From assembly GCA_949358305.1 (NCBI GenBank), contig OX442314.1, positions 26,955,118-27,019,117 of the forward strand: a stretch of DNA of 64,000 nt. The letters are read 5' to 3'. The notes under the pieces were generated by a model that was given only the letters and a program-made list of their open reading frames with translations, was not told the DNA's origin and ran no database searches. The stretch is from Strigamia acuminata (Eukaryota; Arthropoda; Chilopoda; Geophilomorpha; Linotaeniidae). Position numbers and translations under genes: made by a program. Below, piece after piece: positions 3,241 to 44,639 of the stretch (position 1 is its first letter; every line of letters begins with the position of its first letter).

Positions 3241-4600
3241 GTAAAATATTAATCGGCCACTGCCGTTGGATTACCATTATCCAGGTAGTTATTTATCGCA
3301 ACATCTTGAAGATATTACTCACGGGCTACCAACCCGGCGTGTCACCTGTGCATTAGGCCTTTACCGACTTTTAACGAGCGGAAGGACCAATCGTAGAAAG
3401 ACGGGAACCTGCGAGGGCTTTTACAACAGCCATCCTGCAGCGGACTGAGGCCAGTTAGCTGAGGGACCTACTTTCATTTAGCAAGGTCGTACTGTATACG
3501 ACCGTTATATTAAGCCACCGTACGAAATCCTACTGTCCCGTAGAACAGCTGGCTAACGTTACGGGGCCATTTCATGCGGATGCATGTCTATTACCGGAGT
3601 TAGCCTTCCCGAAAAGGCCCTACAACAACAATAACAATAGTAATGAATACCGATTGTGGAGAGCTGAGGTGGCCTGATGTGTCGATAAGAAAGTGAAATC
3701 AAACGATAACAACAATTCAATTACAGACATTTACAGTTATCAAGCCAGGGGGGTTACTGGGTGAAAACTGATGCTTATATAGTTCTGTAGAACTACTAGA
3801 TTGGCGACAGCCAATCAGCATACGAATCGGCGGATTCGTGGGTCACTAGTCCGGACCTAATATATGACTATGTCCAGATGGGCCCAGTTGGGGTCCGGAA
3901 GGGTCCAGTTGGTTCCCTTCGACAGGTAAGTAGCGTGGATATTGATTCAACAGAATCAACATCATCAAGTAATTAATACTTAGTTTATGTCGAATAAAAT
4001 AGTTATATTTTATTCACCGTGTCTAAATAATTATTTATCACACTTTTTAGTTTTATCGAGTTTGAATTACGCGCGTTTGGTAAACAGCGCCATCTATTGT
4101 GAACATTGATAAATACGGATTTGTAATCATCACAATATGTATAGACTTCTACTTAAGTAAACCAACTAATACGATAACCTGAATATGCTGATGCAGGGTG
4201 TAACAAATTTCAAGAATTGAAGTGGGTGTTTTTATTCAGCTAAAGATACGAAAAGAAGTTTGAGTATTAGACAATTGATACACTGCAAAATGTAGAGAAA
4301 TGCACTAGGAACCAGCGTTTGGTGGGTCACAAAAGCAATTTTTTTTAACTTTTAGAGGAGGTTGAACAACAAGTCACAGTTGTACAAATAAATAAGTAAG
4401 TAGGTAGTAAAGGAAATCAAAAGGGAAAACAAAACATATTTTGATGATGGGTTGACATTTTCTAGCTAGTCAATAAGTATTGCTATAAAAATTCATTGCG
4501 CTGGGGATAAAGTAGGTTGCTAAAATGTTCTAGTATCTATGCATTAATCTGCAGAATTGGATTTAGAACTCAACATATACCACAATTGATATAATACCTG
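3241..4600. other. Gene-free interval 3' of channel unit A
   Basis: No exon is recognised. From about 4203 the sequence ('aagaattgaagtgg', then 'agctaaaga') matches the 3' flank of unit B near 34503, so the duplicated unit extends a few hundred bases beyond the stop codon. Confidence 0.4.
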
Positions 4601-4604
4601 GTAC

Positions 4605-4979
4605 TTAAGAAAAATAATTTTTAACAGTTGTGTAGCAGTTTTGAAACAACTCTGGTATGATGAGCAACGATAGACCGAACAATAAACCAAAGGCATTTGC
4701 CAAATCACAGAAAAGAGCTTCAGGCTGTATTTAAGAATTTCAACATATTGCTCGATGAAATTTGTAGCTGGCATTATTAAAACAATAGATACAGTTGATG
4801 CATTAGGATGCTGAAAATAAAGGTTTGTTTGGTGAATAACTTTCTTGCAAGTAGGCCGACAGTCACATTCTCCTTTTGTGCGGATATTCAGAGACAAATA
4901 AATGAATTTTGCCAACACTTCTTTAGCTTCTGATGCAGACTTGCACGTGTTTGTGAATATATTATTGGTAAATGGTAAC
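4605..4979 (-). pseudogene. Unit A last exon: DEG/ENaC C-terminal half with frameshift before TM2
   Basis: The acceptor ends at 4980-4981. The exon opens LPFTNNIFTNTCKSASEAKE, continues through a CDCRPTCKK cysteine motif and FIEQYVEILKYSL, then loses frame. Unit B has 'agcttcgaggctg' on the plus strand where A has 'agcttcaggctg' (4716-4727), a single missing base. Downstream of this point the other frame encodes a good TM2 with the GLS selectivity motif and an IIPELFQN end like unit B. As written, the frame used upstream gives no membrane segment. A sequencing error is an alternative explanation. Confidence 0.75.
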
Positions 4980-5780
4980 CTAGTCGATAATTCAAATTAA
5001 AATAATATAATTCAGTATGTCATGCGACTGCTAATATACCGGCACGAGATTAATTCGAATAATTTGTCTTGAAAGCATTTGTCGTGGCATTGTATATATT
5101 CTTCTTCCTTTTCAATACATGGGCGTGATTTCAAATTCAGTGAAATTTTCTGTAAGTGTAGAGAATTGGTTAAATTACTCTGAAGTGTTCTTTTCATGTT
5201 ATGCGATTTTACATTACAACAAGTAGTTAAACACTAATTTAATTTATAGCTACTGTATTCAGGTTTTTTTGGGAGGTGGAGGATAATATGAGTAAAAAAT
5301 TTGGCGGGGGATTGTTAGTTTATTCCTGGTTAAGGTTTAGCTTTGGAATCCAATCCAAACAGGAAACACGAAAGGTTCTGGTTTTTGTTAATAATATAAT
5401 CATAATATCAAGATATTTAGATTGCCTTATCATGTGTGGTATTTTTGGAATTATTCTATAAAAAATGGAAATTATTTGTCATATAAGTATAATATATTTT
5501 ACTTCGAAAGACGATATTTGCAGTATTGACATGGTAGAGAAATCGATGTTCCGTCGACTTGTAAGAATAGATTGGATTTTAGCTTCAGGTGGACGAAGGT
5601 ACAACTACAAATTTAAAATAAAAATTAAAAAAAACTTGAAGCTATCCGATAATATAAAACGACACATTCATTATTTACACAGCATGTAGTAATGTAAGTG
5701 GGGAGAACCACATTATGCTGTGGCGTAGCAAGAACGGGCAAGAACGGGCCCGAAAGCAAATTGGGTTTGATGGGCTCTTT

Positions 5781-7473: not shown

Positions 7474-8117
7474 CTGACGGTGTGTCGTCGATCAGTCATA
7501 ATCGTCGACGATTTGACCCGAGCTAATTTTTTTTATTCTGTTATCTTACCTGCCACAATCCATCAGAACAGTGACTCCTTACATTTATAAGAGCAATAAA
7601 GAATGCAGATGCAGCTCCAGCGTACTTAATAGGCTCTAAAACAAAATAAAATGTGTCTTCAATTCTATGTTATATTATTTTTATAACTTTCTCTGTACCG
7701 ATAGTATAGTCCAAGCATGTTCCCGAATGCAGTTGTAAGTCATTGATACTGTACGTGTCATCTGTTGAACTTAACCCGAGTATCTGAAATATTGTGAATT
7801 TCAGCATTAATTGTAATCTACTGAACCCGAAGTAGATTGCATAAACAAAATAGCAAAAAAAAAATCGTTTTCTGCCTCCAACTGCAGTGGTTTTGGAACT
7901 TGGATGCATACTACAGTAGTAATGTAACTGAAACTGACAAAATTGAAATATTTTTACTTAGTTTGTTCACTTTAAACACTCTTTATAAAGCACGTGATTT
8001 AAAATCCTTCAGGTTCAGTTACCGGTATTCAGTTTATGGTTCCAATAAGCAATAACAATTGGCACACAGAAAGACAAATACTCAGCGAGCTTACAAATAA
8101 ACATGAAAAACACTTAC

Positions 8118-8955
8118 CTTTGGAACATGTTTCATTACGACTTTATTCAATTGAGGCTTTTGATATCTCCATAATGTTTCGAGCGATGGTTTCTTATCAC
8201 TGTTCATTAGATCAATGAAATGAATTTTGCATGGATCTTTCATAATCTTCTTTGCATATCGTTCTCTGTATACGGTCATTAGTTTGCCATCGTTGCAGGC
8301 AATTATATTAGGCATGTAAATGGTGTCGTTTTCTTGAACTTTAACTACGAATTTGATTGGTTCGCTGTAGTATAGCTGTATTTTCGTTGCAGTTAAATAT
8401 ACGGCAATTATGGTATTTGTCAATAACACAATTAAACGCACGAAACGACCAATCGATGGCATTTTATGTGAAGTAATGTGGCTTTTTTTAGACATTACTT
8501 TGTCATGTATCTCCACTATTTTACTTTTAAGGTTTGTGTTTGATTGACAAAGAGGCTGAGAATTGTATTTTCTAATTTTCTCGTGCAGTCGCTTAATCGA
8601 TGCTTGTCCTATTGCTACCAAGGATAACAATGATAATCCCAATGAAAATCCCAAATTTCCGCCAAAGTCTACTAGCAATGCGATTACGTCGTAGTCAGGC
8701 ACTTCAGTCATGACTATGAATGTTGTGTCAGTCTGTTTCATTTCGACGACAACTGTACTCTTGTCGGGTGATCTCGCTGAGGCTACTTCCGATATGTATA
8801 TTTGCTTCGTGCAAGGTCTCAAGCAACCACAATCCAATGTTGCTTTTGTTGATAATACATGTTTGAATGTGTTGCCATGAGTTTTAGCAACAATTGTTGT
8901 ATTTTTTACCTCGCTGCAGTCCCTAATTTCATGTTTAAAATCCATATATGGTAGT
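8118..8955 (-). CDS. Unit A shared exon: C-terminus of channel subunit 1 fused in frame to N-terminus of subunit 2
   Basis: One exon of 838 nt between acceptor 8956-8957 and donor 8116-8117, open throughout. It encodes the pre-TM2 ectodomain of subunit 1 (CGCLRPCTKQIY), TM2 with the selectivity signature (GGNLGFSLGLSLLSLV), and a basic cytoplasmic tail of about 50 residues ending MSKKSHITSHK. It continues without a stop into MPSIGRFVRLIVLLTNTIIA, which is the start and TM1 of a second DEG/ENaC subunit, followed by its early ectodomain (YMPNIIACNDG). N and C termini of this family are both cytoplasmic, so the fusion is topologically possible. Unit B has the same exon, 3 nt shorter, with one stop codon at the junction. 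Whether it is translated is unproven, because the rest of unit A carries lesions. Confidence 0.8.
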
Positions 8956-9004
8956 CTGAAATTTAAAAATTGTTTTTATTTAAATCAGCTGTGGCAGCTG
9001 TGAC

Positions 9005-9461: not shown

Positions 9462-9726
9462 GCAATAGGAAGAAATGTGTTCTTTTTAAATTTTAAAGTT
9501 AAATTTCAAGTCTGATAAACTTGACTACACTGTATAGTCAATATTTTGATTTACCGGCATTTAGGTTTCTCTCTCCGCGCCAAACAATCTTCGTAACACT
9601 TTATACTATCTTCTTCGTTGGAATTGCACCCAGGGTGTTGTGATGGTAGGAAATTGTACTGGAAATTAAAATGTTAATTCTCAAAGTCTTACAATTTTGT
9701 ATATAACACATCAAAAACACAAAGAC

Positions 9727-9950: not shown

Positions 9951-10248
9951 AGGAAGGTTGAACAATCATCAGCCACATTGAATTGATGAAAAACGGTATT
10001 GAGACCGAAAAACAAGAAGATTTGAGCAGATTTGAGGCAACGGTTGAGAGCAACCACGAGGCGAAAACCGAGAGTAACGACGCGCCATCTTGAAGTGCAC
10101 GATACGAGACGACGAGAAACAACTTTAACAAAGACTGTGAGCAACAATTCGATTCGAGGTGAATTAAACAATATTGAGATTGTGCCACAGAACCGAGACG
10201 GAAGAAAAAGTTGAACAATACGTGCAATTTGAGACGAAACCAACAAAG

Positions 10249-10855
10249 ATGAGCGATACCGGTAATTGGAGTTTGGCAAACATTGAGCCACTAAATGATG
10301 CGAATTATTTCTTATGGGAATCAAGAGTGGAGGGAATCCTCAGAGCCAAGAAATTGTGGAAAGAAGTAATTGTAGGAGCCGAACCGCCACGTGGAGTTCA
10401 AGGAGAAGCGGATTTTGCCGCAAAAGAGAAAACCTGGGACGAATGGGATGATAAAAACGCGGCGGCCCACTTCACGATGATCAGCACAAGAACGGCACCA
10501 CAAGTTTTGAAGTATTCAAACACAAAAGGTGCAAAGGCACTTTGGGATTTGGTAAAAACCAACATGGCGGCGAAAACCCAAGAATTGCAAATGAGGAGTG
10601 CCTGCGAGCTGACACAGCTAAAGATGAATAACAAAGAAGATGTAGACACGTACATGAACGGGCCGAAGCCATAATTAACCGCTGTGCAAAACTTGGCAAA
10701 AAAATAGATGACTACGAATGCAAGTTTTATGTGACGAAAGGATTGCGGAGAGAATTTGACGCAAATGTGCGCGCAATTGAAGTGCAGGCGAATTTAGACA
10801 TGTCAAAAATTCGCAACATATTAAAAATGGAGGAAGGGCGAATTTCAGCTTGAAA
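10249..10855 (+). pseudogene. Copia 1 gag (frameshifted)
   Basis: ATG at 10249 (MSDTGNWSLANIEPLNDANY) starts a gag capsid region with the typical copia opening, in which a leucine-rich start is followed by a tryptophan-containing YFLWESRVEGIL block. The frame breaks near 10660 (reads NGPKP then stop). The next frame carries on with INRCAKLGKKIDDYECKFYV and ends at a TGA near 10853. The structural protein would not be made in full. Confidence 0.7.
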
Positions 10856-10925
10856 AGATGACAAAAACGCGACAACAAATGAAACCGCACTCAAGACACG
10901 TGAGAGAAGGCAGAAGCCAAAGCGC

Positions 10926-13139
10926 ACATGCTTCAACTGTGGCTGTCGAGGACATATGGCAAGAGAATGCTACAGTGAGGCAAAATGTTTCAACTGCCAG
11001 GAATTTGGACATTTATCGAAAGATTGTTCGAAACCCAAACGAGAGTTTAAAAGTGGCGACTCAAGAGGACGTGGGCGAGGCAGAGGCGGTCAGCGAGGTT
11101 GCGGCAGAGGAAAGAGCGAAATATCAATGATGGCACTTGAAGAAAAAGCAGAATTCACGCTAATGACGTACGAGATGGATGAAAACACGAATGATGAAGA
11201 GACGAATGAAGAACCAGATGGAGAGAGCGATTGGGTATTAGACTCCGGATCGACAAGCCACATGACGGCGCTGAATGCGAAACATTTCGACACATTTGAT
11301 AAAGATGAGAAAAATATCGGAATGGCGAAGAAGGGAAAAAGCATGAAGTCAATTGGAATGGGCGAGATTGTGCTCGAACACGACAGAAAAAATTCCAGAT
11401 TGAAGAAAGTATTGTGTGTGCCGCAAATTGGAAGCAATTTGTTGTCAGTATCGAAAATTGTCGATAATGGACTAAAAGTCACATTCTCCAAAATGAGCGC
11501 AACAATTAATGATGAAAATGGAGAACAAGTTATGACGGTACCAAGAAAAGGAGACATGTTTGTGTTGCACGCGAATATTAAACAATGCGAGAAGTCGTAC
11601 CAAGCGGAGGAAAATGGCAATAATTGGCACGTGAGATTGGGACACCTGAATTACAACACCCTGCGAGAAATGAAAAATGAAGAACTTGCATATGGCATAG
11701 AAATTAGCAGCAAAGGTGGCACCGTGTGTGAACCATGCATCGCAGGAAAAATGAAAAAGACGTCGCACAAGTCGGTAACAGACCGCCAATCGTCCAGCAT
11801 CATGGAGTTGTGGCACATCGATCTAATTGGACCAATTGGACCCGAATCTCGAGGAGGTGCAAACTATGTAATGACTGTAGTGGACGACTGGAGTAGGATG
11901 TTGATGGTAAAAACATTAAATGCAAAAAGCGACGCAAAAGAGAAGTTGACAGAACTAATCACCTGCATGGAGAGACAGACTGACAAGAAGCTAAAGAAAT
12001 TGAGGAGCGACAATGGCGGCGAGTTCTTGTCCAAAAGCATGAAAGAATGGACGACAAAAAGGGGCATTGAACATCAGCTGACCACAGCATTTAACCCGGC
12101 TAGCAACGGCGTCGCAGAACGCGCGAACCGGACAATACTTGAGATGTTGAGAGCAATATTAAAAGATTGCAAACTGCCAAAGACGTTTTGGGCGGAGTGT
12201 GCATCGACAGTGGCACACATCCGCAACCGATGCAAATCGTCAATTCATGGACGCACACCATTTGAGATATGGTTTGGCAGAAAACCAAATTTAAAATTTT
12301 TGAGAAGATTTGGATGTATAGCATATGTGCTAATCAAGGATCATAAACGAAAGAAACTAGATCCCAAGGCAGAAAAAGCAATATTCATTGGCTACTCGAA
12401 TACAAGGAAGGCCTACCGAATTTATCATCCGGAAAGTGATTCGATTAGTGAAGAAATCGATGTGAAATTTGACGAGAGTAAAACTGGTGCAGACTTGCTG
12501 AATGGAAAAATCCAAGACGATGAAGAGATTGAAACAGTCAAAATCGATCTGAACTGCGAAGAAAATGAAGACGAGTCAGACGATGCCGAGGAAGAAAAAC
12601 AAAATGAAATAAATGAAGAAGAAGAGGAAACAAATGAAACAGAGATCAACGCGGAAGAAAATGACGACCAAGATGAACGTGCCGAACCACCACAGAGAGG
12701 GCGACCGGCAGGGGTGACCAGAGAAATGAAATTGGTCGCAGACACGATGCAAAGAGAGAAACGAGAACGACAGTTAGTCGCCCAAGGAGCACGAAGATCA
12801 GAGAGAATTAAGACGAAGCAAATGGCATTACTAGTAGAAGAAATTCTAACGCCGAAAAATTATAATGAAGCGACAAATTCCAACAACGCGACGGAATGGA
12901 AAGCCGCGATGGATGACGAAATGAGTTCGATGAAACAACACGGAGTGTGGAAAATTGGAAAATTGCCAAAAGGAAAGAAGGCGGTGAAATCCAAGTGGGT
13001 TTATAAAGTGAAGTTAAATTCCGAGGAGGAACCGGAAAGATTCCGAGCGAGACTAGTAGCCACTGGATACTCGCAGAAATTTGGGGACGACTACGAGCTG
13101 ATCTTCGCCGGGCGAAGTTCGCCCCGGTTATCCGAATAG
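10926..13139 (+). pseudogene. Copia 1 zinc knuckles, protease, integrase and start of RT
   Basis: Open frame beginning with two CX2CX4HX4C knuckles (CFNCGCRGHMAREC and CFNCQEFGHLSKDC, about 10926-11028). Next comes an arginine/glycine-rich stretch, an aspartic protease (LDSGSTSHM, about 11239), a GAG pre-integrase HxxxxH..CxxC zone (near 11630-11750), and an integrase core with D (HIDLIGP), D (SDNGGEF) and E (RANRTILEM). An acidic linker and the first part of the reverse transcriptase follow. The frame is lost near 13105, around a short 'ttcgccgggcgaagttcgcc' duplication, and stops at 13139. Confidence 0.8.
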
Positions 13140-13150
13140 AGACTCTGAGA

Positions 13151-13615
13151 ATGCTGATTAATGTAGCAGCGAAAATCAACAGACCATTAAAGCAACACGA
13201 TGTCAAAGCCGCTTATCTTCACGGCAAGCTGAAAGAAGTAATATTTATGATGCAGCCAGAAGGATACGTTGAAGGAGGAAAGGAACATGTATGCCAATTA
13301 ATCAAAAGCATTTATGGATTAAAACAGGCAGGGAGATGTTGGTTTGAAATGTTAGACAAAACCTTGAAGAAAATTGGATTTAAACCATCTCCAGAGGACC
13401 CATGCCTTTACGTGATTTTTATTGACGGCAACTTTATGTTTCTAGGCGTATACGTGGACGATGACCTGTCCTTGGCATCCACAGACGAATTTGAGACGGA
13501 ATTAATGTCGAAAATGAAGGAAGAAATTGAGTTCGTGAGCATAGGCAGACTGGAATACATCTTGGGAATCCAAGTCGAGTATAAAAATGGAAGAATCAAC
13601 ATCCACCAAGGCTAG
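13151..13615 (+). pseudogene. Copia 1 reverse transcriptase, second part
   Basis: Continuation of the RT in another frame: KAAYLHGKLKE, IYGLKQAGRCWFE, the catalytic YVDDDL box and LGIQVEYKNG. Translation stops at 13613-13615 after NIHQG, before the RNase H domain expected in a full copia pol. Confidence 0.75.
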
Positions 13616-14199: not shown

Positions 14200-14276
14200 C
14201 ATCACAGCTGGTATCTTGCAGCTTCCATTTTTCTGAAACTGCCACATCATAGAGAATCCCTCAGCCATGGACAAAT
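14200..14276 (-). CDS. Unit A, subunit 1 ectodomain exon
   Basis: 77-nt exon after the acceptor 'tttttag', encoding LSMAEGFSMMWQFQKNGSCK and ending with donor GTGAGA. Unit B has the same-length exon at 43122-43198 (LSMIEGFSFTWSFRKNGSC). It resembles the early ectodomain of DEG/ENaC subunits. Its phase does not join exon 1 directly, which implies an unseen small exon of 3n+1 nt. The open frame extends upstream to 14403, so the true start of the exon is uncertain. Confidence 0.5.
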
Positions 14277-14404: not shown

Positions 14405-16717
14405 CTATTGTTAATGATAATGAAGCATCGTTACAACATTTGTCATTAAGGTGTAATTTCTGAACCAACAATGCTAGACTAAAAATGTTAATCTACAATA
14501 TTGTCTAGCGTTGTTGATTAAGAATTTAGAACTGGGAAGACAATGTCGCAACGATGCTACAAAAACAACAAATGTCTCATTGGATTTGTCATGTCCAATT
14601 TCCTACCAATTTTACAGTTTTACCTTGGGCATAATGGCTATGTGCGAGCATGACAAGGAAAGGACTTTTTTCTGCTTTGTAGAGCAGTTTTTATTACTTG
14701 TTTTGAAAATTAAAGCAACGCCCATCATTGTATTTTTTTCACTGATCTCTATATTTGAATTAGTTGTTACAATTTTGCTATTATTTTTAGTCATTTTAAA
14801 AATAGATTTCTTGTACTAATAAAAAGAAATAACTTAGTTAAATATAATAAAGGAATAAAACAAATCAGAAAAGGAAGTGAAGTGCTGAACTTGAGTTTTA
14901 CATATTGGTTTAAAGCGCATTTACAAACGGATCGTGGTAATTAGATCGAATAAAACAAGAGTGAAATCGGATTTTGCTCTTGTTCAAACATGTTTGTGCA
15001 ACAAAAACGAATGCATTGCGCGCTTATTCAATGCAGCTAGCAGTTGAGAGTTTGAATAAGCGCGAAATAAGTATATTGAATTATGCTTTTGTTCAAACAG
15101 TGTAGAACCACATTTGCAATCGCTAAAATTGCTCCCAAATTTTCGACGTTGTTAAATTGTGACGAATTAAAAATATTTACTTCAAACATACACAGGACCT
15201 AGCTCTCTTTTAGGAGAGAACAGGAACTGGATAGCCAAAACACATTCAGGATAAAGTCATTGTCTTAATCTAAACGATGTGCAGGTGTGAGGGGTGGCTT
15301 AATCTTGGTTTAATCCTTTGGCCAAGTTTGTTGGAAATTAGTTATTCTTGGTTATTACATATAAATATTAATTTATGTTATATTTTAAACAGTAATTCTT
15401 TTACTTACAAATGCATAAAACATTTGTATTTATGTATTTAATCAACTATATTAAATTTGCCATCTAGGGACAAAATTATTCATTTACATGAATATAGTTC
15501 ATGACTGTCACACAGTTACCATACAAAATCAGACAGGACAAGAGCGCATGACTTCCTGTTGGAGGGCAATATGTCTTGTGTCGTCTGTATGTCTATGAGG
15601 GATGCAGGATTTTTATTAGTCATGACCGTATCAAAAATATTTCTAAGACTATCAGAGGGTTCTTCTTCAGCTCTCCTTTTCACTGCTGCAGCAACCTTAC
15701 ACTTAGCAAGTGCAGCAGCTAAGTCTGCCATTAGTGTTTGGGAATTACCTGTATATAAGCTACATGCTTTATCAACACATACTTGTACAAGTAGTATGTA
15801 CATTTTTCTCTGTTGATGAGCATCTTGGCTGCGGATTGCTTCACTTTAGTGACGCCGTTTTAGCGACGCCGTTTTTAAGGTGCTTAGGTTCAGTTAGTTT
15901 AGGTTAGTTTAGGTGTAGTTAGTTTAGGTTAAGTCAAGGTCATGATGCTGCATTTCCGATTAATCGGAGATGCAGCATGTGCGTGGACGCTGGCCCACAA
16001 GCCTACAGTAGGGGGTGAAGGAGAGATTGAGTGGTGACCATATTTTTTTTCAGGTTTTTAGGCTCTTAGAGTATCAAAATCCTAGCTATGGCTCTGCTAA
16101 GAGCCCATCATGCAACTTGCACACAGACCCATTGGTGTATTACTACGCCGCTGACCACGAGTACTGTATTTATGCTGTAACAGCAGTGTGCACCTATACT
16201 CTGGTTCGACTCAAGAGTATGCCCTTCTAAGAGCCGCATCACTGGTGTAGTGATCCATAAATGTAGACCCAAACACCATAACAAACAATAGTTTTTCATT
16301 CACATGTCCATAGAACTTTATTTCTTACAAGGAAGTAACATTTATGTATAAAAATAATCAAAATTATATCAACTTAAATGGTAATAACAATCACAAATGA
16401 TAATAAAAATAAAAACTACTTCCCCTAGTGGTAGTAATACAACCTTGAGTTAGGAGTAATGCGGCTCTTAGAAGGCATACTCTTGAGTCGAACCAGAGTA
16501 TATCTATGCTGTAACAACAGTGTGCACCTACAGTATCTATGCTTTAACAACAGTGTGCACGTATCCATGACATGTAATTGCATCCCTAAGTTCCCAATTC
16601 ACTTTAAGCGACGATTTAACAGAACCAAGTAATCGCATAAAATGAGGGATACCTTTATTTGAATTTTGAAATAACAGATTTTCTTACTTAATTGATAAAC
16701 AAATAAAACATTCTTAC
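14405..16717. other. Intron region of unit A without recognised exon
   Basis: 14640-14790 resembles 43390-43510 in unit B (shared 'gctttaat.ttcaaaacaagtaat' on the minus strand), so the segment belongs to the duplicated unit. A 95-codon minus-strand ORF at 15516-15803 has no recognisable domain. TTAGG-like words occur at about 15875-15935, and an inverted repeat at 16198-16239/16459-16500. Confidence 0.4.
16198..16500. repeat. Inverted repeat pair, 42-bp arms
   Basis: 'actctggttcgactcaagag' and the next 22 bases (16198-16239) are repeated in reverse complement at 16459-16500 with a single-base difference in length. Direct copies of 'cagtgtgcacct' lie next to each arm. This could be a small MITE. 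The 'ggttcgactc' word resembles a tRNA box B, but no tRNA fold is evident. Confidence 0.5.
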
Positions 16718-17200
16718 TTGATGTGCTTCTACAAGCTCCAAATTGTTTAGCATACTTGAATCTAGCCACAACTGAGTGTAATTAAAAGTCTTGGTAGCAC
16801 TCTTTATAATCCCTTTCACTGCATTCCCACAATCTATACGATCCTCTATGCCATTTTTTATTGGTCGCCAATATGGAGCCAAAGTTGCTGTATCTAATCC
16901 TGCCAACATGTAGCCAGGTATTTTTAGTTCTTTCGTTTCTTTATACTCAATCTCAACTTTAATTGGTTTAGACAAGTAGTGTTGCACTTTTTGATATGTC
17001 TGATAACAACAAATGGTGAGACAAAACGTTACCGCAACCAACCATACAATGCGAACTGCAACGGATTTCTGCTTGTCCAGTAACTTATTCAATATCGGCA
17101 ATGATGTCTTCTCGATTGAACTTGCAATTTCTTGTTTGCAAAGATGCCGAATGCGATGTTTTTTCAACTTCAGCATTCTTAAATTTTCGATACGTCTCAT
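16718..17200 (-). CDS. Unit A exon 1: DEG/ENaC N-terminus and TM1
   Basis: ATG at 17200 begins MRRIENLRMLKLKKHRIRHL. A basic cytoplasmic tail is followed by TM1 (IVWLVAVTFCLTICCYQTYQ) and PIKVEIEYKETKELKIPGYM. The exon ends at CAA before GTAAGAATG (donor 16716-16717). Its 161 codons match unit C in length. Unit B is five codons shorter, in the loop after LAPYWR. No in-frame lesion is present in this exon. Confidence 0.8.
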
Positions 17201-17437
17201 AATCTTGGTGCTTTTGTGAGTATAGGGTTTTTTTCAGTTTTTTAATTTGTTTTCTGGTGTAAATATGGGGGTGCCGTTCCAACGGCGAATCGTCCAAGGG
17301 CGAATCTGGCCATTCGGACGAATGGCGAATTTCGACTTTATTCTGTCCAAAACAGTCCCAACGGCAAATTTCTCCCAATTCAGCATTGGGACTGCTTTTG
17401 GACCTTTCTAATGGCGAATTGGTAAACGATTTGCCAT

Positions 17438-18062
17438 TGGAAACGCAAAAACGTGACCAATGGCGAATATGTGTGTGCTGAATTTCGCCATTGGAAACGC
17501 AAAAACGTGACCAATGGCGAATATGTGTGTGCTGAATTTCGCCATTGGAAACGCAAAAACGTGACCAATGGCGAATATGTGTGTGCTGAATTTCGCTATT
17601 GGAAAGGGTTTTGCGTTTCCAATAGCGAATATGTGTGTGCTGAATTTCGCCATTGGAAACGCAAAAACGTGACCAATGGCGAATATGTGTGTGCTGAATT
17701 TCGCCATTGGAAACGCAAAAACGTGACCAATGGCGAATATGTGTGTGCTGAATTTCGCCATTGGAAACGCAAAAACGTGACCAATGGCGAATATGTGTGT
17801 GCTGAATTTCGCTATTGGAAAGGGTTTTGCGTTTCCAATAGCGAATATGTGTGTGCTGAATTTCGCCATTGGAAACGCAAAAACGTGACCAATGGCGAAT
17901 ATGTGTGTGCTGAATTTCGCCATTGGAAACGCAAAATCGTGACCAATGGCGAATATGTGTGTGCTGAATTTCGCCATTGGAAACGCAAAAACGTGACCAA
18001 TGGCGAATATGTGTGTGCTGAATTTCGCTATTGGAAAGGGTTTTGCGTTTCCAATGGCGAAT
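17438..18062 (+). repeat. Left-arm 54-bp satellite array with 216-bp higher-order period
   Basis: About 11 units of a 54-bp sequence. Each unit contains CCAATGGCGAA and, facing it, TTCGCCATTGG, with 'tatgtgtgtgctgaa' between. A variant junction (gctattggaaagggttttgc) occurs at about 17595, 17811 and 18027, exactly 216 bp (four units) apart. Because 54 is divisible by 3, several frames stay open for hundreds of bases without being genes. Confidence 0.9.
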
Positions 18063-24054: not shown

Positions 24055-24600
24055 GACAAAAATGGCGAAATTCAGCACACACATATTTGCCATTGGTCAC
24101 GTTTTTGCGTTTCCAATGGCGAAATTCAGCACACACATATTCGCCATTGGTCACGTTTTTGCGTTTCCAATGGCGAAATTCAGCACACACATATTCGCCA
24201 TTGGTCACGTTTTTGCGTTTCCAATGGCGAAATTCAGCACACACATATTCGCCATTGGTCACGTTTTTGCGTTTCCAACGGCGAAATTCAGCACACACAT
24301 ATTTGCCATTGGTCACGTTTTTGCGTTTCCAATGGCGAAATTCAGCACACACATATTCGCCATTGGTCACGTTTTTGCGTTTCCAATGGCGAAATTCAGC
24401 ACACACATATTCGCCATTGGTCACGTTTTTGCGTTTCCAATGGCGAAATTCAGCACACACATATTCGCCATTGGTCACGTTTTTGCGTTTCCAATGGCGA
24501 AATTCAGCACACACATATTCGCCATTGGTCACGTTTTTGCGTTTCCAATGGCGAATTTCAACATGCACATATTCGCCATTGGAAGCGTAAAAACGTTCCC
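24055..24600 (-). repeat. Right-arm 54-bp satellite array
   Basis: About nine units of the same 54-bp satellite in the opposite orientation to the left arm, followed to 24820 by degenerate CCAATGGCGAA motifs. Unlike the left arm it lacks the 'gctattggaaaggg' variant, so the two arms have been homogenised separately. Confidence 0.9.
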
Positions 24601-28663: not shown

Positions 28664-29040
28664 AGGCAAATATATTGAAAAAAATTGCAGCAAAGTGTGA
28701 GAAGCTTTACAATCACAGTTTCCAAAGACTTTGTGTTTTTTTAATTCTATCTTGTCAAAATGATGCCTCATTTTCCGTGTTATTATTTTCTCCTGACAGG
28801 TTTCTTCCAAATCAAATTTATAATTTTGGTTTGAAAGTGTAAACACGTAAAATATTAATATTAAGTTATAAAAACTGCAACAGCAACACAGAAGCAACAG
28901 CAGTACTTGTAAATCCATATTTCAGTAAATTTGTTGGCAGTTGGAATCTATGGGCATCGATTTAAACACCCCCCATTTTGGCTTAATTTTCCCCCGAAGT
29001 TCAATTTAATTTTTCCCCAACCAAAACCCCCCCTGGAAAC
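28664..29040. other. Gene-free junction between the nested cluster and copia 2
   Basis: No exon is recognised. C-rich runs at 28965-29035 mirror the G-rich interval at 13806-13915. The 5' end of copia 2 cannot be placed exactly because no 5' LTR is visible. Confidence 0.35.
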
Positions 29041-29070
29041 TTTAAAGAGGCTGTAAACAAAGATGTAAAT

Positions 29071-32000
29071 TTGGATTTTGCTTTGAGCACGAGACGTCGG
29101 GACACCCTGCCCCTCGAGTCCGGTCCTGCGGAATGGTTTCTCGATTCTGGTGCCACTTCCCACATGACAGGAAATGAGATATTGTTTAAGACTTTGGATT
29201 CTGGTGCAGCTCGTATGGTCATTTTGGCGGATGGGACCGCTGTCCAAGCTACTGGCATCGGGACAGTTGATTTAATAGTTAAATATGAAGGAGTGTGCCG
29301 TACATTACACCTGGATGAGGTGTTATATGTGCCGTCGTTAACGAACAATTTATTTTCGGTTGGCCGTGCTATTAAAAAGGGATGCTCTGTATTGTTCGTG
29401 GACGGATTTTGTAAGATAGTGGATATGAATGCTCGAGTTGTGTTAGAGGCAGAGATGAAGAATACCTTGTTTGCGTTTAAAGCCTCATTGGGAAGATGTT
29501 CCATATCACCTGATGAAGCAGAGGCTGGTTTTGCTGGGAAAACCGTCACACAGTCTAACCAAGAATTAGACACTGTTCTCTGGCATCGAAGATTTGCACA
29601 CCTAAATTTTCAGGATTTGAAGATATTGGTCACAAGGGACATGGTTAAAGACTTACTTTTGAAAAATCTCAAGCCATTGCCGTTGTGTCAGGCATGTGTG
29701 ACAGGAAAGCTTACTCGTTCTCCATTTAAGTCGGTCCAGTCGATTAAGAGTACTGCACCTCTCCAGATGCTACATATGGACCTTTGTGGTCCGATGACCG
29801 TACCATCTTGTGGAGGATCAGTTTACATGTATACAATCGTGGACGATTATTCAAGAGCAATTTTTCTGAAATTTTTAAAAACTAAAGATCAAGTTACTGA
29901 AGTATTTAAGGAGTTCTTAGCGGTACAACAGAACAAGTATGATATGCGCGTCAAGACTGTAAGAACCGACAATGGGACTGAATTTTTGAATAAAAGATTC
30001 GCCAATGTTATGGCCCAAAATGGCATTGAACATCAGAAAACTGTAATTTATAGCCCAGCCCAGAATGGAGTTGCTGAGCGCAGTAACAGAAAAATTTTGG
30101 ACAAGACACGCACCATGTTGCAGGATGCTAAACTCCCTATGGAATATTGGGCAGAAGCGGCTGCAACGGCAGCCTATATTGGGAACAGGTCGCCAACTAA
30201 GCGTTTTGTTGGACAAACTCCTATAGAACGCTTGACCGGTGTGAAACCAACAGTTAAACATCTACGGATTTTTGGGTGCTTGGCATATGCTTGGGTGCCA
30301 AAGCAGCATCGTAAGAAATTGGAACCCAGAGCAAAACCAGTAATATTCGTTGGTTACCCTAATTTACAACCAGGATGGAAATTCATGGACCCGCGGACAA
30401 ATCAAATAATTATTTCTCGCGATGTCCGGTTTGATGAGACAAAGAATGGGAGTGATTTGTTGCAAAAACATAATCAACTGGAGCCAATGATGTCATACAT
30501 ACCGGAATCAGCCCCAGTTGAAGTTGAAACAACACCGCCTATTGATCAACATGAGAATCAACCAGTGGTTAGGAGACAGTCAACTAGAATTCGTCGACAA
30601 GTTCAGCCATATCAGGTTGCTGATTGGCGTAAACACCGCGATCGAAAATGGGCGAGTGCACGTGACGCTGCACGTCATGTTAATCACAATGGTTTACCCG
30701 AAACGGGTCTCTCCTCGCACCATGCTGAAGAAGCGATTATAGAACCACAGAACTATAAGCAAGCGATTGAATCAGAAGAAGCTGAGCAATGGAAAAAGGC
30801 CATGGATAATGAAATGGATGCTCAGCGAGAACGTAAGACTTGGAGACTGGTATCAAAACCAGAACAAGCCAAAGTGATTGGCTCAAGATGGGTTTATAAG
30901 AAAACGATGGACCCAAGAACAAATTTACCAAAGTTTAAAGCACGGTTGGTTGCGCAAGGTTATAGGATAACAAAAGGCATTGACTTTGAGGAATCATTTG
31001 CACCTGTTGTTCGTTTATCTACAATTCGCATGCTTTTTGCGATGGCAGCAATATTTCAATTACTAATTTTTCACTATGACGTGAAAGCTGCTTATTTACA
31101 TGCCAAATTAAAAGAAACTGTTTATATGGCTCAACCACCCGGTTATGAACAAGATTTTGACGTACCTCGTGTCTGCTTGCTCCTGAGTGCAATTTACGGG
31201 CTTCCGCAAGCTGGGCGAGCATGGCACGAGGCCCTTAATCGAATATTGCTGGACGTTGGATTTAAGAAGTTGACCATAGATTCGTGTGTATATTTTTGTT
31301 ATGATCATCAAAAGTTAATTTGGATGGCCGTGTATGTGGATGATCTACTGGTGTTTACAAATAACCAAGACTTTATGAACCTACTATTGCAGAAGATAGG
31401 ACAGAAGATTGATATAGTTAATCTTGGACGGGTCAAGAACATACTCGGCATTCAGGTCGAAACTAATGATGAAGATGGCTCTATTGCAATCCACCAAAGG
31501 CCTTATATTGAGCAATTACTCCAAAAATTTGGCATGGAAAATGCCAATACCGTAAACACACCAATGGATCTTGCTCAGAAGTTTGAAGATCCAACTTACC
31601 CAAAGGGAAATCCACTCGAGGATAAGCCTTACAGGGAAATCATCGGATCATTGATGTATTTAGCACAAGGTACAAGACCCGATTTGGCTTTTGCGGTATC
31701 AAGCCTATCACAATGGCTAACCCAGCCATTTGAATGTCACTGGACAGCCGCAAAAAGGATCTTGAGATACCTTAAAGCAACGAAAGACTACAAGTTAACT
31801 TATCGAAGAGAATTAAATCAATTAAGAGGATTCGCTGACTCCTCCTGGAACACCCCTTCTCATGATGCAAAATCATTTGCAGGTTACATAACCCTTATTG
31901 GCGGCACCGCCGTCACATGGCAGTCGCGCAAGCAACAGTTGGTTGCACTCTCTACTTGCGAGGCCGAATTTGTGGCCCTCGTAGAGTTAGCGAAGGAGGT

Positions 32001-32289
32001 TAAGTGGCAGAGTTCCTTCCTGAGTGAGCTCAAGTTGGACTCTATCGTACGACATCCTATTAAATTGTATTGCGATAACCAGGCGGCGGTCGCCTTAACC
32101 AAGAACCCACAGTTCCACGCTCGCACGAAACACTTCCAGCGTCGCGTCCTATTTTTGCGGGATGATGTAGCAAAAGGAGTTTATGATATTGAGTTCGTAC
32201 CGACAGATAAGATGTTGGCAGACGTCATGACGAAAGCCTTATCCAAGCCAAAGTTGGAAAATGTTTTGAAATTTATCGGACTTTATTGA
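29071..32289 (+). CDS. Copia 2 pol polyprotein without gag
   Basis: An uninterrupted frame of 1072 codons with no ATG at its start. The frame is already open upstream of 29071 to about 29038, so the ORF is truncated, not initiated, here. In order: aspartic protease (LDSGATSHM, residues 24-32), GAG pre-integrase zone (LWHRRFAHL near 170, CQACVTGK near 212), integrase catalytic residues (HMDLCGP near 237, TDNGTEF near 299, RSNRKI near 335), reverse transcriptase (YVDDLL near 755) and RNase H (LSTCEAEFVAL near 960, DNQAAVALT, HARTKHF). The lack of stops suggests recent insertion, but without gag and the 5' LTR it could not move by itself. It belongs to a different copia lineage from element 1. 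Confidence 0.9.
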   Translation: MDFALSTRRRDTLPLESGPAEWFLDSGATSHMTGNEILFKTLDSGAARMVILADGTAVQATGIGTVDLIVKYEGVCRTLHLDEVLYVPSLTNNLFSVGRAIKKGCSVLFVDGFCKIVDMNARVVLEAEMKNTLFAFKASLGRCSISPDEAEAGFAGKTVTQSNQELDTVLWHRRFAHLNFQDLKILVTRDMVKDLLLKNLKPLPLCQACVTGKLTRSPFKSVQSIKSTAPLQMLHMDLCGPMTVPSCGGSVYMYTIVDDYSRAIFLKFLKTKDQVTEVFKEFLAVQQNKYDMRVKTVRTDNGTEFLNKRFANVMAQNGIEHQKTVIYSPAQNGVAERSNRKILDKTRTMLQDAKLPMEYWAEAAATAAYIGNRSPTKRFVGQTPIERLTGVKPTVKHLRIFGCLAYAWVPKQHRKKLEPRAKPVIFVGYPNLQPGWKFMDPRTNQIIISRDVRFDETKNGSDLLQKHNQLEPMMSYIPESAPVEVETTPPIDQHENQPVVRRQSTRIRRQVQPYQVADWRKHRDRKWASARDAARHVNHNGLPETGLSSHHAEEAIIEPQNYKQAIESEEAEQWKKAMDNEMDAQRERKTWRLVSKPEQAKVIGSRWVYKKTMDPRTNLPKFKARLVAQGYRITKGIDFEESFAPVVRLSTIRMLFAMAAIFQLLIFHYDVKAAYLHAKLKETVYMAQPPGYEQDFDVPRVCLLLSAIYGLPQAGRAWHEALNRILLDVGFKKLTIDSCVYFCYDHQKLIWMAVYVDDLLVFTNNQDFMNLLLQKIGQKIDIVNLGRVKNILGIQVETNDEDGSIAIHQRPYIEQLLQKFGMENANTVNTPMDLAQKFEDPTYPKGNPLEDKPYREIIGSLMYLAQGTRPDLAFAVSSLSQWLTQPFECHWTAAKRILRYLKATKDYKLTYRRELNQLRGFADSSWNTPSHDAKSFAGYITLIGGTAVTWQSRKQQLVALSTCEAEFVALVELAKEVKWQSSFLSELKLDSIVRHPIKLYCDNQAAVALTKNPQFHARTKHFQRRVLFLRDDVAKGVYDIEFVPTDKMLADVMTKALSKPKLENVLKFIGLY

Positions 32290-34624: not shown

Positions 34625-37600
34625 TTAAGAAAAATAAAATCTTATAGTTTTATAGAAGTTTTGAAATAACTCTGGTATGACCAGCAATGACAGACCAAAA
34701 AATAAACCAAAGGTATTTCCGATTTCACAGAAAAGAGCTTCGAGGCTGTATTTACGAACTTCAACGTATTGCTCGATGATATTTGTAGCTGGCGTTGTCA
34801 TAAGAAAATGTAAATCCGATGTTTCAGGTTCGTAAAAAAAAAGATTTGTTCGTAGAACAACTCTCTTGCAAGTAGGCTGACAGCCACATTCTCCGTTTGT
34901 GTTGATATTCAGTGATAAATTAATGAATGTTGCCAAGGCTTCTTTAGCTTCTGAAGCGGAACTGCACACTTTGGCGAATGTGTTATTGGTAATTGGTAAT
35001 CTATAGTTTAAAATTCAAATATGTTTTCACATTTGTGGTCCGTTACGTGCGATGCAACTGCTAATAACTTACCGACACGAGATTAATTTGAATAACTTTT
35101 CTTGAAAGCATTTGTCCTGGCATCTGATGTACTCTTCTTCGTTTTCAACACATGGGCGTGATTTCATATTTAGTGAAATTTTCTACAAGTATAGCGCCGA
35201 GAATTGGTTAAATTACTTTTCTGTTTTCTTTTCATAGTTTGGGGTTTTCGTGATGGCGAGTAAACAATACATAAATGCATAGGTTACGTTTAGTTTTAGA
35301 GCCCATCCCAGTAATATGAAAGATTCCAGTTGCAATAAAATCTTAATACAGGTTGAGACTTAGAAACCTGACTTATTCATTTTGTATTATATATTTTGTA
35401 TTATATTTTGCAAATAATGATAGATAAACTTAAAAAAGCTAAACAAAAGGGCGGTTTTTTTTTGTCCTTGACTGTTTCAGCTTGTCAATATTCTGTGGTC
35501 TTGTGACAAGAGACTTTACTTGTAAAGTAACCCCCATTGCCAATAATCACATGTGCTTCAGGGTGGAGAAAATGGAGGCTAGGGGTAATGCCATTCCGTG
35601 AAATTAGAAGCCCCAGAAATATTTGATGCAAAATAGTCATTGACACGTTTGCTGTACGGGAAGGAAGTTTTCCCATCTTGTTGTGAGACCGCAGTGTCCA
35701 TACCAATTTGCAAACATTTTCCATTTTCCACCTATAAAAATGGCATTCAAATATCTGTATAATGATTGTAGTTTCAAATAAAAATTTTAATTATTTATGG
35801 GGTAATTACTTTTGCAAAATCGGCGGGTCTCTCTGGTTCACCCGGTATTAGAAGGGCTTTTAGATAAGTTATAAACTCACACATTTTTAAAAACTCATGA
35901 AGTGCAATAGGATTTTTTTGTTTTCAAATCATGTGTTAAATTTTTCAGAAATAATTGTTGAAAAAGGGAAATTATTTATGTCAGAAATATAATATATTTT
36001 ACTTCTAGAGATGATATTTGCAGTATCGACACGGTAGAGTAATCAATGTTCCGTCTACTTGTAAGAATTGATTGTACTTTAGTTCCAGGTGGTCGAAGAT
36101 ACATCTACAAAATTTAAAAAAAAAAATTGAAACTACAATAATAGAAAACAAGGCTATCACAATTTTTACAGCACATAGCAGTGGTTCTTAACTTTTTAAA
36201 AGGCCATGAAACATTTTTTGAGTATTTATATTGTTGCGTTCCTGACGGTTCCAATTGAATTTTCACAACAACACTAAATTTATATTTAGTCACTATGGGA
36301 TTTTCTAAGTGTGAGAGATCCCGGCGTTCACCTGTGGAAGCAGTTGAATGCCGTTTATAGGTCTTCTATCGGGTGGGTTAGCCGTTAACTCGGTGTCTAG
36401 GGATTTGATCTCGAATAAAGACTAGTTTAGTTATTTTAAATCAAACAGTTAATCAATTTATTAAGCGTTAATTACAGGTTCAATTGACGAGAATGATAAT
36501 AAAATGGGTTCTATGAGGATAATGTCGTCGGCGTAGAAGGCGACGTGCTCGAAGCAGCGCGGGTCTCCTTCGGGCGGGAAAAAGCAGTGCAGAAATGGCG
36601 ACTCGTCGCCGCGCAAATTCTGCGAAGAGGGAAAGGAAGCGTGAAGCCGAAAGACTTCACAAAGTGGTCCGGCTGTTAAGCCTGACAATACGGGAAATCT
36701 TAGGTTAAACCCTAGATTGCAACGGGAGATTTCCGTTGGCGACAAGTAGTCAAACGGCGGGTACCGCCGATCGTTAAAACCTGACTGGAGATCCGCTACA
36801 ATCTGAATCGGAATCGTCGTCAACAGGTCGAGGAGCGGCGACGATGGCTCTGCAATCCTCGGCGGCTGGCTGGCGTCGATCTTCAACGGCGCGGGCGCGT
36901 TGGTCTTCGGGCGGCGGCGGGAACGACGGTGGTTTGGGCCGTCGTGCGTCGTCTTCGCAGCTCGGAAAGTGATTCGTTTGAACGTTGGTTCAAACAAATC
37001 GGGTTGAAACTTGGCAAACTCACGAGTCACGGACAAAACAGTGTTTTTGGTTAGTGAACAAAGCTGTGTCGGTGTGAACGGTATGAGTGTGATGCAAAGA
37101 GTGAGTAATAATTCGAATTATTGCTCAAAATATGGCCGGAAAACGGCCAGTGCGCAGGCGTGGCGTGTGCCAAGGCACGCTTCAGCCCTAGCAACGGTGC
37201 AAAATTTGGGGATTGACTTAGCAACGCCCCAATCCAGGGCTCAAAATGCCAGGGCAGCCGTTACAGCTTCTGGGCCAATTGCCCAAAAGCGCAACAGGTG
37301 CACGGCAAAAAACACAATTCTAATGATTATGGTTAAAATATAAATAATATCTTAAAAACGTGGTAGAAAAACTCCACCACAAATGAAGTGAATATTTGAG
37401 ATCGCAACAATATCTAGACCGAACTTAGCAGCGCCGGCTCAAGATAGGAACAAGCGGTGCAATTGCGCAGGGCGCCATGACGAATGGGACGCATTAATGC
37501 GCCCAAAATTTACCTACGAGCATTAAAAACAATCGCACTGGACACTGATTGACTTTTAGCTGCCCCTGGGACGAAGGCAGGTCTTGTAAAAAATCTGAAC

Positions 37601-40600
37601 TAGAGGGTTGCCCAATCTCCAGGCAGATCTCTTTAGATTGGACACAATCTGCAGTTGCCGTGATTCGACTTACAAGTTAGTGGCAGAGAAATACAAATAT
37701 GTCGTCGGGATAAATAATACACTTTATTAAACACTTACGAATATTCCAATACAATTAACAAGTGTATGATTGATGGTCTCGGATCCTGCTGCGAATACGA
37801 GTCATTGCTAAACAATCGGCCCTCAATTTCATTCTATTTTTTTTTTACTTTGTTTGATTTGCAGTTGTTGCGACAGAATGATTTGTCATACACCACAGGT
37901 CGTGTAATGTTGTGACCGTATATACAGTATTAAAATGATATTAATTTAAACTACCTTTAACAACTTGTGTTGCTCGAATTCACAGTTTAAAAAACGCATT
38001 TAGACAAACCAGACTAAAAGCTTTACAACCTGTGTATTTTTGTTAACGAAAAAAATAGTGCAGTTACCTTACCTGCCATAAGCCGTAAGAACATGAGGTA
38101 GTTTTACTAATAACGGAAATCAAGAATGTAGATGCACATCCAGCGTACTTTAGAGGCTCTAAAACAAAGTATAATCGGTCTTATAGCTTTTATTTTACAC
38201 TTTATTTTATAATTTTCTCAGTACTCATCCTAAACTCCAAACATGTTCCTGAGTGCATTTTGATGTCATTGGTAGTGTATGCTTCATCTATTGGATTAAA
38301 CCCGTATTCCTGGAATCAAGTAAATGGCATTATTAATTTCGGTTCTACAAAGCCTGTATGAACCCAGAAATTCATAAGGAAATTCTTGCTGTTGATCCCT
38401 TTTTGAGTCACCATTTATAGAAAAAGGTCATTTCCCTCTTTTCTCAGAACCCACTCCTATGAACAGGTGTGTGTCCTGAGGAAAATGAGTGATGTTGCCC
38501 TAGTTGCTATTGGCTTGGGCAGTCACATGACTTTAATGTATAAAAACATGGGGTCTTCCTTTTCAAGGCAGAACCTACAAAAAAACCATACCCAACACAC
38601 AACAACCATCTCACCATCAGACCTACTTCCACTGCAAGTCAGGAGTGATTGAGGAAATAACTGTGTAAGTATAATTGTAATTTCGTATAGTTTAGAAGTT
38701 TACAAGAAGACTATTTCGGCCATAATCACATTACCTCAGTTTGTAATGAATTCGGCCTCCTGAACCTGAATAACCTCCTCCGCCTCTACGACATCACGGC
38801 GATCGCTGATGCTGTCCGAAACGAGAATCATCCGGCCCATAATCATCCGGCCCATAATTACATCCGGCCCATTCTAATTTTCCGGCCCACATACTACCAG
38901 TCAGACGTCGACACCCGCATGCCACGGCGCCATCGCTTTGAAGTTACCACACGGCAGTCCACATACAAGAGTAACACGTTCCCCTATCGGTGTACCTCCC
39001 TCTGGAACGACCTCCCTAGCGACCTAAGATACTCAATATTCGACTGCACAGCGTCCCGATGCCGTTATCATTGCTGACATTTACACAAAAGAGTGGGCAA
39101 CTACCTACTCAACCAACAAAAAATTGTCTAATTCTCAACTTGTATTTACTTCACCGGAGTGTTCTTGAAATAAATAAATAAATAAATAAATAAAGCAAAG
39201 GAACAGTCATTGTAAGCACTCATTGAATTAGTAGCTGTTGGAACAATATCTTACAAATTAACAATGTAACTTAGTTGCTATGTAACAAATGTTGTTTATT
39301 AAAAATGAAGATGAGTGTATGAATATATAAACGCCTCCATTGCATGTTTGACTTTTCATGGGTTATGAGCCCAGACACAAATTTATTATGTGGAATATGG
39401 ACTGTTTTTTGGCTGAATAAGTGCATATTGTGAGCAAAGGTTCAAAATAAGAAGTTTTCAATGAAAACTTTTCATACAGTTTGAAATGTTCCATGAGAAT
39501 TAGGCCCAGAATTGATTGAGTGATAAGCCTCATCCTGAACTAATAAAGTGATAAGCCTCATCCTGAACTAATAAAGTGATAAGCCTCATCCTGAACTAAT
39601 AAAGTGATAGGCCTCATCTCGATCTAATAAAGTGATAAGCCTCATCCTGAACTAATAAAGTGATAGCCTGTGCAACCTTAAGTCCTGGACTGATCAGTTG
39701 ATTTTAAGTGCTATTTCTGAGGAAATGTTGACAGTTCAATTTGTAATTTCAGTTGAGTACGTGGTCGAGACAGCGCGAGATTCCAGCGGGCGGGAAATAG
39801 CAGTGGGCGAAATGAGCCTGATGGCCGCGCAAATCGTCCTTAAGCCTGGAGAACGCACGGAGGCTAGCGATGTCGTAATTGGATCCGGTTGAGAAGCCTG
39901 ACCAGAATGCAAAGAATCTGGGATTGAACCCTGAAACTCAGCAGGAAATTCCCCGCTGAAGGAAGGTATCGTATGGCGTAAATCGTCGACAAATAAAACC
40001 TTCAAAGTCTACTGCAAGTCGTACTGTTACCAGCGGCGGCTTGCTCGCGTCGATCTTCAGCGGCTCTCGCTCGTCGGTCGTCGGCAGTTTGCTGGCGCGG
40101 GTCTTCGGCGGCTTTTTCGCGTCGGTCTTCGGGCAGCGGTGGTGACAATGGCGGTTCTTTACGTGGCCCTTCGTCTTCGTCGTCCGGGAAGGATTCACTT
40201 GATGCGGATTGGCATCAAGAAAATCGAATGAATCAATGCAAACTCACGGATCATCGGCCAAAACAGTGTTATTCAGGAATAAAGCTGTGACAGTAGTGAT
40301 CAGTCTGAGGTGTAGGCAAAGAGTGTCTTTTTTCGAAAAACAATTAGGGATTTGGGCCAGAAAATCGGCCAAATACGCATGCGTGGCGTGCACCTGGCCT
40401 ACGCTGTGCCTAGCATAGGTGCAAATTAGAAGCCCGCCTTAGCAACCCCCTAATCCGACACCCCGGTTGCCAGGCAACGGACAACGGCCAAGAGCATTTG
40501 TCAAGTGCAAATAAAATTAATATTTTACTTGCACAACCAAATGAATTTAAGCAGTAATTTTAACACACATTTCGTTAAATTATTTTAGAATTTTCATTTA

Positions 40601-41086: not shown

Positions 41087-41576
41087 TTTATTTTAACTAT
41101 TGTAATTTGTTTTAGACATGACTTTCTCATGTATCTTCACTATTTTACTTTTAAGGTTTGTGTTTGATTGACGAAGAGGCTGAGAATTGTATCTTCTAAT
41201 TTTCTCGTACAGTCGCTTAATCAATGCTTGTCCTATTGCTACCAAGGATAACAATGATAATCCCAATGAAAATCCCAAATTTCCGCCGAAGTCTACTAAC
41301 AATGCGATTGTGTCGTAGTCATGCACTTCAGTCATGACTATGAATGTTGATTCCGTTTGTTTCATTTTGATGACAATTTTATCTTTGTCAGGTGATCTGG
41401 TCATAGCTACTTGCATTAAGTATATTTGCTTTGTGCAAGGTCTTAAGCAATCACAATCTGTTGCTTTTGATGAAAATACATTTCTGTGTGTGTTCTTAAG
41501 AATTGTAGCAACAGTGGTATAATTTTTTATATCGTCGCAATTCCTAATTTCTTTGTTAAAATCCATATATGGTAGT
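40742..41576 (-). CDS. Unit B shared exon holding the end of subunit 1 and the start of subunit 2
   Basis: A single 835-nt exon between acceptor 41577-41578 and donor 40740-40741. Subunit 1 ends with TAA (41095-41093). The next two codons are AAT AAA, and ATG (41086-41084) opens subunit 2 in the same frame. The corresponding junction in unit A has the same number of codons and no stop. No splice site or room for a promoter lies between the two coding parts, so subunit 2 could be made only by readthrough, by reinitiation, or from a transcript starting inside subunit 1. Confidence 0.85.
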
Positions 41577-44386: not shown

Positions 44387-44639
44387 AATCCTTGTGCTTG
44401 TGAGTATTGAGTTTATTTTCAGTAAACCTGGTAATTGAGGGCGAATTGAACGTATAATTAAGGAAAAGAGCCCGTTAATTACAACTTGGTAATTGCACAC
44501 TGAACATTTGAAAATTAATTGGGTATGCTGTCATTGGTTACGGTGCACCAAACAGAAACAATCTCACGCAATGCAGTTGGCATGGTACCAAACTTATAAT
44601 TTCTACGTCCAAAATTGAACTTTAGTAGGATATTTACGA

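Follow-up and report, generated by a model that had tools for sequence, protein, structure and literature searches.

Evidence for a large family of genes encoding tandem dimers of DEG/ENaC subunits in the centipede Strigamia acuminata

The stretch of DNA considered here, which we call the window, comprises 64,000 nucleotides of the genome of the geophilomorph centipede Strigamia acuminata (contig OX442314.1, positions 26,955,118 to 27,019,117), and coordinates given without a contig name are positions within it. On its minus strand, at 8118 to 8955, lies a single exon of 838 nt, bounded by the acceptor TTTCAG and the donor GTAAGT, that we call the junction exon. In one frame it encodes, in order, the end of the ectodomain, the second membrane segment (TM2) and the tail of one DEG/ENaC channel subunit (A), then a linker, and then the first membrane segment (TM1) and the start of the ectodomain of another (B). 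A 294-codon open frame (8091-8975) encloses the exon; on the scale of chance, about 8% of the window's 60-codon stretches are free of stops in a given frame. The whole junction exon matches the Pfam ASC profile (PF00858, curated cut-off 23.6 bits) in two stretches with 62.7 bits. Taken alone, the TM2 part scores 45.3 bits over profile positions 347-450, and the TM1 part 21.9 bits over positions 13-107, just below the cut-off. The original prediction, made from the letters of the sequence, had described an uninterrupted exon in which the TM2 and tail of one subunit are followed by the TM1 of a second, and the two-stretch match and the open frame bear this out. Its coordinates coincide with the exon borders, and the junction peptide that it named is present in the exon translation. 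A predicted structure of the junction exon alone was unusable (mean pLDDT 31, pTM 0.17).

The other exons of the same gene lie on either side of the junction exon, also on the minus strand. Exon 1 (16718-17200) encodes the N-terminus and TM1 of subunit A, with an in-frame TM1 profile match at 17074 and the donor GTAAGA; its start codon and border were taken from the sequence, and a further upstream exon is possible. Exons 2 (14624-14815) and 3 (14200-14276) of subunit A are tentative. The first of these shows 91% conservation with the paralog L032, its borders were drawn by eye and are unsure, and its end phase is incompatible with exon 3; exon 3 is conserved with the same paralog and has AG and GT borders. 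The middle exons of the A half of the window gene did not fit together with consistent phases. Exon 5 (9555-9658), which encodes the cysteine-rich end of the subunit A ectodomain, keeps the frame when spliced to the junction exon and is matched in 27 of the paralog loci compared. Downstream of the junction exon, the ectodomain of subunit B continues by in-frame splices through exon 7 (7699-7783; 85 nt, the same length as in the complete gene on contig C11 described below), exon 8 (7550-7635) and exon 9 (5503-5604). The cysteine-rich exon 10 (5040-5149) has 110 nt, again the same length as in the C11 gene, and its splice donor in the window copy is unlike that of a close paralog. From exon 5 to exon 11 one frame runs through the splices, with GT-AG borders, and the phases of the junction exon are those of the C11 gene. 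The last exon of subunit B, exon 11 (4544-4979), which holds TM2, was placed by pairwise alignment and translation; relative to the paralog L031 it is frameshifted upstream of TM2, and the TM2 profile match at 4718 falls in another frame. Because of this frameshift, the window's own fused copy is probably dying, its second half being broken.

A second fused gene of the same array was found by a scan for the membrane modules at 34628-44530 on the minus strand, the same place as locus L007, with TM1 at 44260, the junction at 41383-40898 and TM2 at 34816. Its linker is broken by a TAA codon, and both window copies, the one with its frameshift and the other with its linker stop, look like members that are being lost. 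The first exon of the next array gene, carrying TM1 of its subunit A, lies at 34-618 on the minus strand and has an open frame with a TM1 profile match at 420. The window also contains repetitive DNA. Two stretches on its plus strand were recognised by eye as resembling Ty1/copia: 10168-13615, an element with several broken frames that lies within an intron of the fused gene on the strand opposite to it, and 28987-32289, where one unbroken frame of 1100 aa resembles a Ty1/copia polyprotein. A 54-bp tandem repeat forms two arrays, similar in their units, one at 17429-18062, immediately 5' of the first exon of the fused gene, and one at 24061-24582.

A complete gene of this kind could be modelled in an array on contig C11. 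The model, for whose exon 8 one of two possible donors was chosen, has 11 exons and encodes 809 aa with no internal stop, and its A and B halves score 82.5 and 64.7 bits, respectively, against ASC, both above the cut-off. At a hydropathy threshold of 1.6, TM1 and TM2 of the A half and TM1 of the B half pass; TM2 of the B half falls below the threshold and is covered both by the Pfam profile and by an alignment to BRTNaC1, a channel of another centipede. Both halves show the TM1 and TM2 profile modules and have the conserved CxC-C cysteines. The G-x-S residues of TM2, which we take to be the DEG/ENaC selectivity filter, read GLS by eye in both halves of the C11 gene and in the A half of the window gene, and in the B halves of the genes that we looked at the second glycine of the GG just before GLS is changed to asparagine or serine. 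At the His-Gly motif that precedes TM1, inspection by eye gave HK in the window B half, no HG in the C11 A half and HG in the C11 B half. The motif does not decide membership in the DEG/ENaC family, since PDPNaC1, the second centipede channel considered below, is also described as being without it (PMC12714832).

Each half of the C11 gene contains five introns, with the phases 0, 1, 0, 0, 2 in both. When the halves are aligned with each other, 86 of 345 aligned pairs are identical (24.9%), and the introns fall in equal or near columns (169/180, 200/208, 236/234, 272/272 and 308/308 for A/B). These matching phases and positions indicate that A and B share one gene plan, and the joint lies at the point where A's last exon runs into B's first. 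The shared plan could reflect a tandem duplication, or it could reflect two family members with common old introns.

Junction exons of this type are numerous. Protein searches of the S. acuminata genome with four family members as queries, once merged, gave at least 324 distinct junction loci in 114 clusters at 100-kb linkage, distributed over nine contigs (at least 130 on C1, 73 on C3, 72 on C6, 12 on C4, 11 on C8, 10 on C9, 8 on C11, 7 on C5 and 1 on C50). Both membrane modules were spanned by 137 of the 142 matches listed for the window exon, by 135 of the 140 listed for a C6 member, by 117 of the 142 listed for a C3 member, and by 136 of the 141 used for a C9 member (141 of 144 matches were merged here, three partial ones on C11 being left out). 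The 324 loci exclude 30 partial-only matches, and near-identical triplets such as C8:11121926, 11151885 and 11212851 may be assembly duplicates, which would lower the figure. Identity to the window exon declines to 22-26% in the lowest matches listed. At C11:3666485-3704017 there are three near-identical, stop-bearing pieces of junction exon about 18 kb apart, which represent a repeated broken copy.

The defects in the window invite the explanation that the two subunits are neighbouring genes that are transcribed separately, and that an open junction is found only in dead or read-through copies. The window copy has a frameshifted last exon, the second window copy has a stop in its linker, and 16 of the 324 junctions, among the matches listed, contain an in-frame stop. 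The other 308, by the same count, are open, however, and the C11 gene is complete with no visible defect. Selection points the same way: dN/dS is below 1 on the TM2 side in all 11 pairs compared, on the TM1 side in 10 of the 11, and in the linker in seven of the eight pairs for which it could be computed. We therefore consider separate transcription very improbable. The original prediction had said that the gene "encodes, or recently encoded" a tandem dimer; the open junctions of apparently intact paralogs uphold this for the family, while the window copy itself is likely broken in its second half. Since paralogs elsewhere show no visible defects, open junctions also occur outside dead copies.

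The strength of constraint varies along the gene. In one subgroup of five genes, dN/dS is 0.09 for TM2, 0.29 for the linker, 0.33 for TM1 and 0.47 for the ectodomain, and in several pairs the linker evolves faster than the modules that flank it. In the recent group to which the window copy belongs, dN/dS is 0.78-1.71 by segment, on few changes, which would fit relaxed selection.

To judge how many subunits a gene contains, we considered the order of modules around the junction exons. In the loci read and in the window, a TM1 comes first, a single exon with TM2-linker-TM1 follows, and a TM2 closes the series before the next gene starts. Within the stretches read, a lone TM2 exon lies downstream of 17 of 19 junction exons and a lone TM1 exon upstream of 13, no TM1 exon being seen upstream of the other six, and no second junction follows any of the 19. 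Natural trimers were looked for at three of the six most closely spaced junction pairs (4801, 4977 and 5396 bp apart), and none was found; each of the three pairs consists of two dimer genes. Among the 212 junctions of the first merged list, at least 105 have a B-type last-exon match within 8 kb downstream, and at least 29 have one within 8 kb upstream. Loci L034 and L043 have an extra partial TM2-like piece downstream of B. Where the genes are readable, the module order indicates two subunits per gene and not three, and we regard it as very likely that these are tandem-dimer genes, DEG/ENaC subunit A followed by subunit B. Thus the dimeric structure that the original prediction proposed is indeed encoded, as the C11 model and the module order attest, although it belongs to a very large family and not to a single odd gene.

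Unfused DEG/ENaC genes in the same genome provide a control. In five loci chosen among the ASC matches (L037-L041) and characterised by open frames and module matches, TM1 and TM2 occur in separate, alternating open frames, and the 12 TM2 frames stop 2-15 residues past the TM2 match. In 47 fused frames the gap from TM2 to TM1 is 29-58 residues, with a median of 40; these frames were picked for holding both modules, so they serve for the gap measurement only. Two B-type tails of 38 residues probably represent a stop-split junction that was counted twice, in the window and as L007. In L037, L040 and L041 the unfused genes form tight arrays, in which the next TM1 match often begins 0.7-1.1 kb past the previous TM2. 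Such an array is a layout from which loss of the gap could yield a fusion.

The origin of the fusion was approached with phylogenetic trees of the TM2 block and the TM1 block (about 107-109 columns), from which L007 was dropped because it is the same place as the second fused gene of the window, and which were computed with and without the long-branched L048. Without L048, the B halves form one clade in both trees (support 97/93 for TM2 and 98/84 for TM1), and the A halves form one group that lacks support (71/17 and 92/40). That the unfused genes form a clade is neither shown nor rejected (p-AU 0.419 and 0.229). With L048 included, the TM2 tree holds B as one clade at 88/79 and requires two changes for A; the TM1 tree shows the reverse, a single A clade at 98/96 with two changes required for B. 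The single B clade in both trees without L048 favours a single old fusion. L048 and the C3 loci at 1.55-4.83 Mb form a very divergent fused subfamily, whose B TM1 does not group with the other B halves in one of the trees, and this subfamily may possibly represent a second, independent fusion. We also considered a derivation of A from PDPNaC1 and of B from BRTNaC1, and dropped it on the rankings of block profiles, in which BRTNaC1 is top for the B ends, ASIC5 is top for the A starts, and BRTNaC1 and PDPNaC1 are about equal for the unfused genes.

DEG/ENaC channels are trimers of separate two-pass subunits, and both termini of each subunit are cytoplasmic, so that a joint from the C-terminus of one to the N-terminus of the next is topologically easy. 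Fused subunit genes are familiar from other channels: in TPC and the voltage-gated sodium channels a single chain gives several pore domains. There the four-fold pore can be divided evenly by the repeats of one chain, whereas here two repeats face an expected three-fold pore. The solved structures nearest to the junction profile are those of PDPNaC1 (PDB 9jf7) and BRTNaC1 (PDB 8ymr). The A half of the C11 gene aligns nearly full-length to the former (1.3e-17), and the B half nearly full-length to the latter (1.6e-13); both are single-subunit chains, with 421 and 431 residues in their structure files, while the genes described here hold two subunits each. The two channels have been reported from antennal neurons of another centipede, BRTNaC1 as a thermal receptor and PDPNaC1 as a proton-dissociation channel (PMC12714832). 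ASIC, FaNaC, ENaC and pickpocket channels give weaker matches over the same regions of TM2 and ectodomain, and in the structures listed they too have a single subunit per chain, in contrast to the two found here.

Chains comparable to those proposed here have been made in the laboratory. Dimer, trimer and tetramer fusions of ASIC1a have been reported to give typical currents (PMC4529235), and the ASIC concatemers of another study, with linkers of 19 residues, are likewise described as conducting (PMC10329638). Like the genes discussed here, these constructs join C-terminus to N-terminus through a cytoplasmic linker; unlike them, the joint in S. acuminata is genomic, occurs at hundreds of loci and connects two different types of subunit. 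In the open-access literature, covered by title and the start of the abstract, we found no description of a natural DEG/ENaC dimer; predicted genes that carry two ASC domains may well exist without having drawn comment. Both halves carry the ASC profile and the filter residues of DEG/ENaC subunits, with the His-Gly motif mostly absent, and what would be new is a gene that departs from the pattern of a single subunit in each polypeptide.

Overall, the best explanation of these observations is that each such gene specifies a covalent tandem dimer of DEG/ENaC subunits, A then B, to which we give a probability of roughly 0.7. The likely history is that a DEG/ENaC subunit gene was duplicated in tandem, that copy A's last exon then ran on into copy B's first without a break, and that the fused gene was multiplied to hundreds of copies. 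It is highly likely that the chain is made whole as one polypeptide, which would have four membrane segments and whose linker and two termini would all be cytoplasmic.

An alternative is that the product is a precursor cut within the linker, giving separate A and B in equal amounts, so that the fusion would set dosage and not geometry. The faster change of the linker seen in several pairs is consistent with this. A linker that is cytoplasmic, as the established topology has it, would lie away from the secretory proteases, however, and we consider cleavage improbable, even though lower-mass by-products have been noted with expressed ASIC concatemers (PMC4529235, PMC10329638).

How an uncut tandem dimer would be built into a channel is a puzzle, as two subunits per chain cannot be divided evenly into three. 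We suggest, with less confidence, that A and B would sit next to each other in a three-subunit pore, the third position going to an unfused DEG/ENaC subunit or to half of another chain; a pore of this kind, with a third partner beside A and B, is a tentative proposal that we hold at somewhat less than even odds. It is also conceivable that the whole chain forms a complex that is not a three-subunit pore. Three chains could form twin trimers, A3 beside B3 and tied by three linkers, or two chains could form a four-subunit channel. A and B are consistently distinct types, both keep the ASC features, and there are always two subunits per gene where the genes are readable, all of which would suit such an arrangement. 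The solved relatives, on the other hand, are trimers of single chains, and PDPNaC1 is reported to assemble as a homotrimer (PMC12714832), and we consider a departure from the three-subunit pore unlikely. An effect of the fusion on subunit stoichiometry is plausible.

The tandem dimers may, again with less confidence, be sensory receptors, a role suggested by the antennal centipede relatives together with the large gene arrays. The findings suggest that Strigamia has a large unrecognised receptor family. The genome paper of the related S. maritima reports "sodium transport" as one of the functions for which duplicates specific to the lineage are enriched; its main text contains none of the words ENaC, degenerin, pickpocket, amiloride and sodium channel, and it describes the animal as blind and without insect-type odorant receptors (PMC4244043). 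In the most far-reaching interpretation, which we put forward as an unlikely speculation, the geophilomorphs would have a superfamily of several hundred heterodimeric DEG/ENaC receptors that are natural concatemers, with a pore complex unlike that of three separate subunits, and these blind predators of the soil would use it as a main sensory repertoire. If this were true, A3 and B3 trimers might, for example, be tied together as twins, or the channel might have four subunits. The puzzle is one of arithmetic, two subunits per chain against a pore of three. The fused form has been retained and multiplied alongside unfused relatives in the same genome, and the family would thus amount to a natural experiment on subunit number, of a kind that is otherwise built by hand in laboratories as concatemers.
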